Shown here piece by piece: positions 42,766-64,000 of a stretch of DNA of 64,000 nucleotides. The notes under the pieces were generated by a model. The model did not search any database. It was given only the letters and a program-made list of their open reading frames with translations, and was not told the origin of the DNA. Every line of letters begins with the position of its first letter. Position 1 is the stretch's first letter. The position numbers were made by a program, and so were the translations under genes. This DNA comes from Apostichopus japonicus (taxonomy: Eukaryota; Echinodermata; Holothuroidea; Aspidochirotida; Stichopodidae). The DNA lies in NCBI RefSeq assembly GCF_037975245.1, contig NC_092566.1, positions 15,166,001 through 15,230,000 on the forward strand, written 5' to 3'.

Positions 42766-45700
42766 TCATTTACCAAAGAGACTCATTGCACCTAAAGCAG
42801 CTTTCCCCAGGGAGCCATACCAGCTTCTCTCTTCAGGTGTTAGCTCGTCGTATCCCTCGGGCAGTCGCTCCCCTTCTTCGGCCAACACTCTCGCTTTTAA
42901 CTTCTCTGCAACGTGTGTAGCAACATGTTTACCGACACTGTGTAAGAGAGCATGCCAGTCAAAACGCTCCGCTGGAGATAACTCAGCCATTTTCTTCTCG
43001 AAGTCATCTAGCATGGCATTCTCTCTGTTATCATGTATGAGTTGTCTTTCCTCTCTCTGTTTTGGCTGATTCTTGTTGTCGGCTAGAGCACCACGGTGAT
43101 GATGATGGAGCAGTTTATGAAACAATCTGTGGCCGCGGCGACTAAGGGCATCCGCGTCAAGAATTTCGTCCTCGATGGAAGCGGCTTTAATAAGTAAATA
43201 AATAAGAATGGTGGTGTATAATGTGGATTGCTTATGATTTGGTGGACATTTTTGCTTTTTTTTCAGGATGATCTAGTCAGAATAGTCTTGATATCTTATA
43301 GTACGAGAAAGTAAACACAATTTTGTATTTTCCCTTTTTTTTTAATTCTTTGGACATAATTCAGTCATACAGTTTGTTAACGTCTGAAACAAGACTTTAA
43401 CAATCCAGTTAGGATGATTTCAGCGCCACAGATCAGACCAATTTGTCAAAGATTGCTTTCGGCAGAATTAAGTCTTGACATTTTATAGTCCATGAATAGA
43501 TATAATATGTTGGTGCAGATGTTTATGCAGCGCGTCTGGTTTGCAAGATAATAATAATAATAATAATAATAATAATAATAATAATAATAATAATAATAAT
43601 AATAATAAAAATCATAATAATAATAACAATAATAATAATAATCATAATGATAATAATAATAATAATAATCATAATGATGATGATAATAATAATAATAATA
43701 ATAATAATAATAATAATAAAAGGTTATTTATTTCTATATTTCGCATTATACCGACGGTCTCGCTGCGCTTTATAAGAAACAAAATGAGTACAAAAATACA
43801 GCATGGTAGAACCAAAACTTAAACATTTACCAAATGGATCGAAAAATTACAAGGTTCAATGAGGGTAGCACGTGAATAAGTGAGTTTTTCATACACTTTA
43901 TAAATTGTCTATGGTAGGGGCATTCCTAATGTGGGTGGGGAGAGTGTTCCAGAGTTTTGGGGTCCGAAAATTGAAAAGAACGCTCACCGTAGGTCTTAGT
44001 TTTCACTTTAGGTGGCTTTAGGAGAATAGTACTGTTAAATCTGAGTGTGCTAGTTGGGATTTGTAAGGTGAGTAAGTTGGAAATATAGTTTGGAGCAAAC
44101 CAAGGATGGCTTTGTAAATGAGGGAGAGAAGTTTGTACTTTATTCGTTAAGAAACCGGAAGCCAGTGAAGTTGGTGGAGAATAGGTTTACTGTGGGATCT
44201 GTTATCTGTGAGGGTAACTAATATAAGGGCGGTGTTTTGAATGCTCTGAAACTTAGAAATTTAGTTTAAGCAGGAAGACTATATAAAAGTCTGCCACAAC
44301 AGTCAAGTATGGATGGTACAGAGGCATGGATAAGTGTCTCAGTCGACTTGTGATCCGGATATTTGCGAATTTGTCTAATTTGTCTGATAGGATGTGAGGA
44401 AGAGAAGCAGATTATATTTACATGAGGAACCAAATGGGCCACCAATGTGAGTGTAAAATAACACCCATATCTTTAACAGCGGGAACGGGAGATATACAAG
44501 AACCGCTAATCTTAACGGAAGTTACAGGGGTGGCATAGTCACCTTTAACTGTGTTAACTTCTCTGGACTGCTCCTTTAATGTCTAAATTGAAAAGTTGGC
44601 CCCTCAATGCATGCTCTAATGTTATCATTCAGTCATTGTTAATACATTGTTTTATAAATTCTAGTAACTGCTCCAAAGAAAAATATATCATTTTACCTTT
44701 ATGTAAACAACCAAGCACTTTTGGATGATATTCAATAGCATTTGTCACTGAAAAATTGGCAAAATTGAAAAACAAATCTGACATAATTATGTAACCATGT
44801 AAGGATAAACCTCAGCCCGTTGAGTTTTTTTGTTGCATCTAAGGACACAATGGTCTGAGTATTACTAACTATAGTCAGTCAAAAAGATCATTTTACAAGT
44901 ATTATTGAAATACAAACTGGACGTATCGCAGTGTAAGACAAAATCATTGAAGCAACAGGTCCCATCTAAGGGTAAAACTTGCCAAGGTTGTAAACGGCAT
45001 CTGATTTGGAGATCACAAATGATTGTTCATCCAAAAGTGAACTTGAAGCAACCAGGCTGACAAGTCTGGTATCGAAGGAGCACATTGACTAATTTTGTTC
45101 TTTATTTTTCTTCTCCAAAATTTCAATCCAACATTTTACTTCAACGTTGGATGGATGGATCTAAATATGAACACATAAAATAGGGATTCCAAATAAAAAA
45201 GGCGATTACTAAAGTTTTGTATAACTTCACATCTCCTTTTATAGGCCCTATAGGTTAAAATGAGAATATCCAATCCAATCCAAGGTCATAACAATAAAGC
45301 GAGAACTTGAATACCGCGAAAAATATACAGTACTTTGCGGGCGGAGTGCAACTATGGCATGGCAGCTGTTTGCTTCAAGTTTACTGCTGTTAACATCACA
45401 TCATCTGTGACAATCTCTACGATCAATATGTCGAATAAGCTACGCTATATACAAATTGTATACCACAGATTTGACCAGGATGCTTAGAATTTTGTTTCTC
45501 TTTCGTCTGTCAATAATGAATTTTTCCCTATAGCTATATATCCTTTTAAAGCAAAATGTATCAACGTGATTTGATACGCTGGTTTATCACAAGTTAAACA
45601 CCTCATAAAAAGCACAAAATCTTCCAAGTTCACTTTTTTTTTATTCCCCACATCTTACCCCGTACCCCCCGAATCCCATATAACTGTTATAACCCCCTTA

Positions 45701-47104
45701 TTTCTCCACACCTTTCTGTCTTTGTCCTTTTCTAATTTATTCTCTACCCTCTTCCCTTAATCCTCTCTTTGTCCCTCGGCAGTTTATCTCCTACCTCTCC
45801 TCTTCCCCTGTTGGTCTCTTTCTCTTCTCCATCCCTTGTCTACTAATCCTCTTACATCTATCTCTTTGTGTTCACCTTGCTCATTCGTGAATTTGTCCCT
45901 TCTGTTACTGTGACTTGTCATTTAGCCTCTGAAGAAGATCCTGCTAGGACCGAAATATCAGGCCAACTTACTTTTACACACTCTCTTCCACAGGCTCTTT
46001 TGTGGATAAGCAGTTTGCTAAAAGTTTTATTTTATTTTTGGTACAAAACATGTCAACTTCAAATGTTGTTATTTCGAAAATGATATGTTGAAAATGAATT
46101 CAACACTGTGGATGCTTAGAAAATATGTTCCTCGCTCACCGGTCAATTTGTTTGTAACAAGGATCATTCTTTTCAAATTTCTGCCTAAAATTAAGTTGTT
46201 CTTGACAACGTGTTCTGAACTGACAACACTGGTCTATGGCATATGATTTTATCTTTGAGCTATCTATAAAGTTAAGCCGAGATTTCTGACACTTTGTTCA
46301 GCTTGCAAACATTTACGAACCACTCCTTCCTCCACCACCCCAGAGGAAAATTAAGGTATAAAGAAATTTCAGTTAAGTACAAAGAAAAAGATTATTAAAA
46401 AAAAAAAATTGAAATCGGCATATTTGAAGTATCGGTAAAGTAAAAAGAAAAATGAAAAAAAAAGACACGAACAAGTGATCTCAGCATAACAAATCATGTC
46501 CACCACCAACTGAGCTCTGAAGCTCTTGGTTGGTGGTGATCCCTAATTTTTCATTTGCTGACGGTATATCGGTGAGACGCCACATCACTTTTGTATTTGT
46601 GTATGTTAGATCCTCCTGCAAGCAGGAACTCGCGAAGAAGCCTCATTGGCTTATCAAAGCCGCAAGCTGACCGAAGTCAGTCTCTTTGCACTTCGGTGCA
46701 TTCGGTGCACCTTGCACTTCGGTGAAACCATGAAGGGATCAGAACCCTCCTCGCATTGGATGCAAGTAAGACATTGTCAGAAAGGGCGTTCAATTAAAAT
46801 GATTCGATTAATTTCGGTTATAATACCAGTACACTATATAATCGCCTTAAAACATGTACGTAAACAGGCCTTCTAAAAAAAAAAAAAACATGTATACAAC
46901 TGACCTCTAACAAACATCAACAAGCACTTGCAAATAAATGATGGTCTTATACTCTAAATGCAGAAATATGGAAGATACAATATTCAAAATGGACAACTTT
47001 CGACGGAAGAAAAATAAATAAAATAAAAAAATAAGCATCTTACCGAAAGTTTTGACCGAGCAAACGATGAAGGCAAAGGCCAACAAACATCGAAGAAGCG
47101 CCAT
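42766..47104 (-). CDS. Secreted His-rich peptide precursor D (two exons)
   Basis: Predicted 159-residue secreted precursor. Exon 1 (47044-47104) starts MALLRCLLAFAFIVCSVK, a clear signal peptide, and ends in phase 1 at GTAAGA. Exon 2 (42766-43184) begins after TTATTAAAG. Next come a short acidic stretch, an RR site, the cationic RLFHKLLHHHHRG, an acidic spacer (MLDDFEKKMAEL), a His/Lys helix (HSVGKHVATHVAEKLK), a second acidic spacer with PEGYDELTPEE, and a Trp-containing C-terminal helix ending LFGK before the stop. The alternation of acidic and cationic parts with processing sites is typical of antimicrobial or signalling peptide precursors. It is the most diverged member of the cluster. 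The 3.9-kb intron holds a LINE remnant, a SINE fragment and a ribozyme-like motif. Function is inferred. Confidence 0.8.
43548..43719. repeat. (AAT)n microsatellite / LINE tail
   Basis: AAT triplets with a few CAT and GAT interruptions. They directly follow the 3' end (minus strand) of the LINE remnant and probably began as its tail. Confidence 0.93.
43720..44620 (-). pseudogene. Decayed non-LTR retrotransposon (L2/CR1-like), 3' end of RT ORF
   Basis: Read on the minus strand in several frames, it matches the usual end of an L2/CR1-type reverse-transcriptase protein: VKDMGVIL near 44475, then ETLIHAS, a Leu-Tyr-Ser-Leu-Pro segment, Ser-His-Pro-Trp-Phe-Ala-Pro-Asn-Tyr-Ile near 44100, LKPPKVKTKTYGERSF and a proline/leucine-rich end. 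Many stops and frameshifts break it. The 3' end carries a GCGCATTATACCG-like tail shared with SINE family B. It lies in the intron of peptide precursor D. Confidence 0.75.
44621..45600. other. No recognised gene
   Basis: Intronic AT-rich sequence. It contains no recognised repeat family or RNA. Confidence 0.5.
45924..45964 (+). ncRNA. Hammerhead-ribozyme-like motif
   Basis: GCCT, CTGAAGA, a hairpin (GATCC-TGCTA-GGACC), GAAA, TAT, C, AGGC. GCCT and AGGC pair as helix I, and ATAT, from the last A of GAAA, is palindromic, as needed for a dimeric helix III. An extra A precedes helix II and one helix II pair is mismatched. The same architecture is at 9988-10028. The pyrimidine-rich 45640-45920 may belong to the same retroelement. 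Confidence 0.42.
46603..46686 (-). mobile_element. tRNA-derived SINE, family A, 5'-truncated
   Basis: Only the 3' 80 bp are present (CCTGCAAGCAGGAACTCGCG and following bases on the plus strand), without the tRNA-like head. Confidence 0.85.
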
Positions 47105-63819: not shown

Positions 63820-63922
63820 CATTATGTTTGCTAGTTGGCTATGCACTATACTAGGAGTGTTCTCTTCCTCTAGAAAGGGGAAACTAGCACAATCAAGGAT
63901 GCCCATTCCAACTAACATACAT

Positions 63923-64000
63923 AATAATAATAATAATAATAATAATAATAATAATAATAATAATAATAATAATAATAATAATAATAATAATAATAATAAT
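63923..64000. repeat. (AAT)n microsatellite at window end
   Basis: Pure AAT/ATA triplets to the last base. Units 1 and 2 have CATATACATTCGTCC-like sequence here, so the tract is specific to unit 3. Confidence 0.96.

Follow-up and report, generated by a model that had tools for sequence, protein, structure and literature searches.

A probable SWYG-1 precursor gene within an array of duplicated peptide-precursor exons in the sea cucumber Apostichopus japonicus

SWYG-type peptides are known from the sea cucumber Apostichopus japonicus, in which SWYG-1 was isolated from the body wall and modulates muscle contraction (Table 1, PMC3432112). In the sections of the literature available to us, Elphick (2012) found no transcript for SWYG-1 or SWYG-2 and suspected a bacterial source for SWYG-3, and Chen et al. 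(2019; PMC6586643) describe two precursors, Aj_SWYGP-2 and Aj_SWYGP-3, both located on LG12 and composed of 2-3 exons; for SWYG-3, the predicted cleavage and amidation were shown by mass spectrometry (SWYGSLASALLamide; PMC6586643). Full-text searches by peptide and family names found no report of a SWYG-1 precursor in the texts they covered. Here, we analysed a stretch of 64,000 nucleotides of the A. japonicus genome (NCBI RefSeq assembly GCF_037975245.1, contig NC_092566.1, positions 15,166,001 to 15,230,000, forward strand; hereafter the window), which contains one complete gene, gene D, and three related exon-2 copies, A, B and C. Gene D is a complete SWYG-type peptide-precursor gene of A. 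japonicus and very likely the gene for SWYG-1, and would thereby supply the probable gene of a peptide with no precursor found reported. Considered as a whole, the reading that we find reasonably probable combines this identity of gene D, duplicate status for A, B and C, and a family role in defence or in defence mixed with signalling.

Gene D and the known SWYG precursors

The elements of gene D in the window are:

47199..47206, minus strand: TATA box TATAAAAA, about 100 bases upstream of the gene D ATG; such a box precedes 6/6 D-type signal exons
47044..47104, minus strand: signal-peptide exon, MALLRCLLAFAFIVCSVKTF plus G, with the phase-1 donor GTAAGA
42766..43184, minus strand: exon 2 (D1), with an acidic spacer, RR, GHRLFHKLLHHHH, spacer, PAER, FDWHALLHSVGKHVATHVAEKLKAR, spacer, PEER, SWYGSLGKAALGAMSLF-GK and stop
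42805..42825, minus strand: SWYGSLG, the myoactive peptide SWYG-1, with PEER immediately before and K immediately after
42604..42624, minus strand: two AATAAA polyadenylation signals (42624-42619 and 42609-42604)

In this layout the signal exon and exon 2 are separated by a 3.9-kb intron, and the spliced precursor is predicted to comprise two exons (47104-42766) and 159 amino acids (aa). Indeed, the heptapeptide lies directly behind a basic residue (PEER-SWYGSLG-K) and the upstream exon (47104-47044) provides an N-terminal signal peptide; since the exact SWYG-1 sequence follows PEER in D1, gene D is to be placed in the SWYG family as the likely SWYG-1 gene. The 25-aa C-terminal stretch of D1 has 6 matches in the genome, the single 100% match being D1 itself, and the pair of AATAAA signals is equidistant in 5/5 minus-strand D-type copies (a count made without D6 and the relative on contig C8). 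The C-terminal GK constitutes an amidation signal at the level of the sequence. By analogy with SWYG-3, the natural product of gene D is probably the 17-residue amide SWYGSLGKAALGAMSLF-NH2, of which the heptapeptide SWYG-1 would be a fragment.

Gene D resembles Aj_SWYGP-2 and Aj_SWYGP-3, as these are described, in species, in a signal of about 20 aa, in a SWYG peptide behind a monobasic site, in the 2-3 exons and in C-terminal amidation; that source states lengths of 152 and 158 aa for the two (153 and 159 in its table), compared with 159 for gene D, which differs from both in encoding SWYGSLG (SWYG-1). The first-pass annotation, made from the letters of the window, had proposed a secreted multi-peptide precursor processed at basic sites and at a C-terminal Gly-Lys, and this is borne out by the sibling product SWYGSLASALLamide found by mass spectrometry (PMC6586643); a secreted, multi-peptide, amidated precursor is thus supported. 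Its suggestion of a new family does not stand, the precursors belonging to the SWYG-type family described in 2012 and 2019. We propose that the gene D protein would enter the secretory pathway through its signal peptide, that cleavage of the precursor would take place behind RR and behind a monobasic motif, P(E/A)(E/D)(R/K), as the literature describes for SWYG-3 and as we infer for gene D, and that the C-terminal Gly-Lys/Arg would be converted to an amide, as in the literature on SWYG-3. Note that the four window proteins gave no Pfam match near the curated cut-off, that B and D gave no NCBIfam match near the cut-off, and that a search of PDB gave no clear match (best E-values of 0.71 for B and 0.088 for D).

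Copies A, B and C and the array around them

The remaining members of the family in the window are:

51466..51755, minus strand: copy A exon 2, 96 aa, open, without peptide 2; C-terminus ALGK
53010..53226, minus strand: copy A signal-exon start, with promoter region, 5' untranslated region and the first 11 coding bases (ATG at 53020)
57062..57465, minus strand: copy B exon 2, 134 aa, open; RR-GFLKHLFHRFHGKPAANEPGKR, PEER-FDWKGFASHVGKHVAQHLTSHLKER, PEEK-GWWHSVAHHAAHAAIDHYI-GK
59195..59235, minus strand: 3' half of the copy B signal exon, a remnant, ILVLVFCTVAIV plus G, with the donor GTAAGT
62573..62844, minus strand: copy C exon 2, 90 aa, open, with YLGK at the C-terminus; peptide 2 is missing, as is part of the linker of peptide 1
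48321..64000, no strand assigned: three tandem units of about 5.5 kb with copies A, B and C; aligned pieces 90-94% identical

Four related minus-strand genes or gene copies had been claimed at the outset; four related exon-2 open reading frames (ORFs), each behind a phase-1 acceptor, are indeed present, but a complete signal exon was found for D alone. In copy A, the signal exon is deleted after ATGGCAGTTCT, its remainder and about 540 further bases are gone, and the frame reads MAVLYGFML followed by a stop; in copy B, an interspersed repeat takes the place of the 5' half and the promoter, and no in-frame ATG is found; for copy C, the expected position of the signal exon lies beyond the window. 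With these broken signal exons, A and B very probably yield no secreted product from their own units; A, B and C are exon-2 duplicates within a rearranged array. In addition, SWWH or GWWH stands where the SWYG heptapeptide would be in all three copies. The idea that the visible 5.5-kb units contain a complete signal exon of their own was rejected: scans of this part of the window gave two other, unconvincing candidates, at 53955 (an AT repeat) and 49149 (a repeated element), and the true B-type signal exon, of which one intact copy was found (G000:C6:15371899), is disrupted in both unit A and unit B. Long GAT/ATG microsatellites are found at window positions 48484-48609, 54060-54228 and 59441-59762, the last adjoining an interspersed repeat that also occurs near D-type signal exons and ends at most 2 bases from the break in the copy B signal exon.

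The processing sites that had been pointed out are conserved, with RR ahead of peptide 1 in 4/4 copies, GKR behind it in A, B and C, and a terminal Gly-Lys in 4/4. Likewise, acidic spacers (net charge -2 to -10 for the six spacers of D1 and B) alternate with neutral-to-cationic, mostly His-rich segments, the net charge of SWYG-family peptides ranging from -1 to +3 (K/R minus D/E). The proposed plan of three peptides per precursor is limited to D and B, since A and C are without the 38 residues that hold peptide 2. As for the amphipathic character attributed to the segments, comparison with composition shuffles upholds it for the peptides at the C-terminus of A (31/1000) and of D1 (18/1000) but not clearly for peptide 3 of B (228/1000) or for peptide 2 (D1 212/1000, D4 103/1000, B 75/1000); the values for peptide 1 are 127/2000 in D1, 177/2000 in D4 and 439/2000 in B.

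Whole-genome searches (an assembly of 671,581,487 bases in 35 contigs, the array region examined being 224,000 bases, 35,000 of them masked and none of these in the window) place these copies in an array of about 170 kb (G000:C6:15208769-15379243) with at least 17 exon-2 copies, 6 of the D type and 11 of the B type. Because the genome was searched exon by exon, copy counts are lower bounds, and poly-His matches were filtered out of the array listing. Exon 2 is open in 6/6 D-type copies and in 8/11 B-type copies, two of the latter having an in-frame TAG and one a frameshift, and a C-terminal G-K or G-R was seen by eye in 15/15 intact SWYG-family exon-2 copies found (14 in the array and one on C8). 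In-frame deletions have removed peptide 1 from D2 and D3 and peptide 2 from 8/11 B-type copies. The D-type signal exon occurs at 6 genome locations, 95-100% identical in protein and each near a D-type exon 2. Peptide 3 starts with SWYGSLG (SWYG-1) in D1, SWYGTLG (SWYG-2) in D6, SWYGSLA (SWYG-3) in D2 and D3, and SWYSSLA in D4 and D5, so that the array contains exact matches to three A. japonicus peptides, each behind PEER. Compared by lengths and peptides only, no array copy fits Aj_SWYGP-2 or Aj_SWYGP-3, as published, in both respects: D4 and D5 have 152 aa but SWYSSLA, D2 and D3 have SWYGSLA but 133 aa, and D6 has SWYGTLG but 183 aa (lengths of D2-D6 computed with the neighbouring signal exon).

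The B-type signal exon (MAVLRCVILALVFCTVAIV) is intact 1.7 kb upstream of copy 15370101, and no other intact copy was seen in these searches. Of the nine B-type copies other than A and B, 15370101 is complete, signal-exon remnants accompany the copies at 15292100, 15251596, 15273452 and 15243182 (the last running into masked sequence), the stretch upstream of copy 15322272 shows intron only, and for three, C among them, the place of the signal exon falls in masked sequence; a further remnant lies at 15343519 with no recognised exon 2. Could A, B and C nevertheless be expressed as alternative last exons, spliced to a distant intact signal exon (e.g., G000:C6:15371899 or 15261010)? The acceptors are all uniform and in phase 1, most B-type exon-2 copies are open as counted above, and the pooled ratio of nonsynonymous to synonymous differences per site (pN/pS) is 0.63 for five copies with no complete signal exon (A, B, 15251596, 15273452 and 15322272) and 0.61 for all eight open B-type copies. 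However, splicing would have to span tens of kb across other terminal exons, 3/11 B-type exon-2 copies are broken, and recent decay or gene conversion would yield the same pN/pS, and we regard such expression as quite improbable.

Wider family and possible role in defence

The relative on C8 has the signal MSVIRCSALVLIFCTVAIL and the C-terminus FRGK and is without peptide 1. When D1 and the proteins of the GYWK and C8 genes served as queries against the genome, eight loci were found at 18.153-18.183 Mb of C6:

G000:C6:18153241-18183293, no strand assigned: second paralogue cluster (L033-L044), with C-terminal peptides swapped on a near-identical pro-region; one pair His-rich

One gene of this cluster is the known precursor of GYWKDLDNYVKAHKT, an orphan myoactive peptide, with the signal MSLLKVIALVLAFTTVTTL, a phase-1 donor and 19+142 = 161 aa as published. 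This AjGYWKDLDNYVKAHKT precursor (Chen et al. 2019), as described there, is like the SWYG precursors in its signal followed by a phase-1 intron, and PEDR stands ahead of its peptide, which aligns to the peptide-2 position of the SWYG precursors. Unlike gene D, from which it is about 3 Mb distant on C6, it has a cationic end peptide behind RR, a bare Gly and no SWYG. GYWK-type genes, which are more distant relatives, likewise have a bare C-terminal Gly, and an in-frame TGA is present in one GYWK copy. In local alignments between GYWK and SWYG precursors, six comparisons each had 0/5000 shuffles reaching the score, five comparisons with block shuffles (two block sizes) each had 0/3000, and a profile comparison gave an E-value of 1.4e-6 and a probability of 81%; the similarity is significant and points to homology of the two precursors, through which two orphan peptide families, SWYG and GYWKDLDNYVKAHKT, would be joined. 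The first 60 aa of D4 exon 2 show no similarity to the N-terminal part of the GYWK protein (score 23, against 23-28 for reversed sequences), and the homology therefore rests on the later two thirds. The signal peptide of gene D is not significantly similar to that of GYWK (946/5000 shuffles), and the signals of the C8 (0/5000) and B-type (8/5000) genes are similar to it.

Four loci of the second cluster (L039-L042) exhibit the exchange of cassettes. They have PEER ahead of NVWRDLSKLEKYHK, and a signal exon beginning with MFRLYSPCIVLLLG and followed by a phase-1 donor was present in both of the loci examined for it. Behind RR, the C-terminal peptide is FIGRLAFRILSRVLRHLLPYLLRVVF-G in two loci and FLF(T/K)LGLHLLGHVVHHVVHHLF-G in two; between these types, 134-136/147 positions are identical in the pro-region and 8/27 in the C-terminal peptide. 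Both types end in Gly and are amphipathic (9/1000 and 14/1000 shuffles). Six strings from second-cluster and array genes were not found by a full-text literature search, in which sequences present only in figures are unsearchable.

Between subfamilies, the family is under purifying selection: B and D are 54% identical with a ratio of nonsynonymous to synonymous substitution rates (dN/dS) of 0.41, and D and the C8 relative give 0.24 (the broken copies 15243182, 15292100 and 15304359 being excluded from these tables). Spacers evolve slowly and peptides fast, significantly in 3/5 comparisons, i.e., B versus D4 (31 nonsynonymous and 27 synonymous changes in spacers, 52 and 16 in peptides; Fisher p 0.008), B versus D1 (p 0.016) and D4 versus C8 (p 0.041). 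A chance ORF or a repeat artefact was ruled out as the source of these sequences by selection and conservation.

Conserved acidic spacers with fast-changing peptides fit defence peptides, and centrocins of sea urchins offer a parallel, since their pre-pro and interchain regions are similar between members and their chains diverse, as described in PMC4805251. According to the same description, on which alone the comparison was made, they consist of a signal of 20 aa, a pro-region, a cationic chain starting with Gly or Trp, an interchain region and a second chain with Gly-Arg. However, centrocins are cysteine-linked heterodimers, whereas exon 2 of D and B encodes no Cys and no such heavy and light chains. 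Holothuroidins 1 and 2 are short His-rich sea cucumber peptides as well, and H2 of Holothuria tubulosa (ASHLGHHALDHLLK; PMC3702452) resembles, but is not identical to, peptide 2 of copy B; their stated origin is an extract of coelomocyte cytosol (PMC3702452).

The resemblance to holothuroidins that had been noticed earlier holds for copy B, beyond most shuffles, but not for gene D, where H2 shows no signal beyond shuffles. If the family were the source of holothuroidins, H2 of H. tubulosa coelomocytes would be the product of an orthologous precursor; we consider this unlikely and the link only suggestive, even though ASHLGHHALDHL and ASHVGKHVAQHL (copy B) are identical at 7/12 positions by eye and H2 was exceeded by few shuffles against copy B (1/3000, 4/3000 and 6/3000) and against a six-protein panel (2/600). 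Indeed, the other eight strings (seven published peptides and one join) gave at least 39/600 shuffles, H1 gave 103/600 against the panel, and peptides rich in His readily match by chance. The H. tubulosa peptide EVKPNLTEKIEDLSQQMD, tried as an acidic spacer, was dropped (219/600), and a 23-residue join of two H. tubulosa peptides compared with the His-rich C-terminal peptide of L042 (61/3000 and 39/3000) was not used.

We slightly favour host defence, or defence mixed with signalling, as the role of the family, whose design looks more like that of antimicrobial peptide genes than that of ordinary nerve-peptide genes; antimicrobial action of the window peptides, as the first-pass annotation had suggested, is plausible. 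The acidic spacers would keep the cationic, His-rich peptides silent until these are cut free, and the array would make, lose and swap peptide cassettes. More tentatively, one sea cucumber superfamily with 2 exons, a phase-1 intron, PE(E/D)R cleavage and an amidated C-terminus may yield the orphan 'neuropeptides' SWYG and GYWKDLDNYVKAHKT as well as defence peptides that are amidated, cationic or rich in His and active on membranes, with the heptapeptides being fragments or partner products of such defence peptides and the cassettes being replaced wholesale on a conserved pro-region. Several observations weigh against a defence role: the window's own peptides are weakly amphipathic, the spacer-peptide contrast is non-significant in 2/5 comparisons (B versus C8, p 0.42; D1 versus D6, p 1.0), and our literature search found no paper joining sea cucumber, SWYG, neuropeptide and antimicrobial. 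In addition, the recorded activities of SWYG-1 to -3 are on muscle (PMC3432112), through effects on body-wall muscle being how they were isolated, and the available text on Aj_SWYGP-2 and -3 reports their transcripts from the nerve-ring transcriptome and, from the circumoral nerve ring, an amidated peptide (PMC6586643). These last facts speak for pure neuropeptide or myomodulator precursors, from which neuron-released SWYG amides would act on muscle receptors and the His-rich segments would be inert by-products. Such precursors are a real but lesser possibility in our view, as a 17-copy array with cassette loss, a cassette swap in the related cluster and peptides that outpace their spacers in most comparisons argue against them. 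Also counted against them is that we know of no receptor for SWYG-type peptides. Transcriptomes of embryos and larvae contained neither SWYGP-2 nor the GYWK precursor (PMC9598280), which fits a defence and a neuropeptide role alike. If the defence role is true, peptides listed as neuropeptides in a species used in aquaculture would stem from a growing array of defence-peptide genes.

Other features of the window

An ORF at window positions 32755-33108 on the minus strand matches S-methyl-5-thioribose kinase (TIGR01767; E-value 5.4e-15, 55 bits versus a cut-off of 275) over profile positions 168-247/401 and may be an exon or a relic; the kinase is known from bacteria and plants, whereas the ORF lies in an animal genome. 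Window positions 21145-28691 contain a direct repeat in three copies (each about 2.6 kb, with 92-96% identity), and a 188-bp tandem repeat is present in three copies at 31722-32261.

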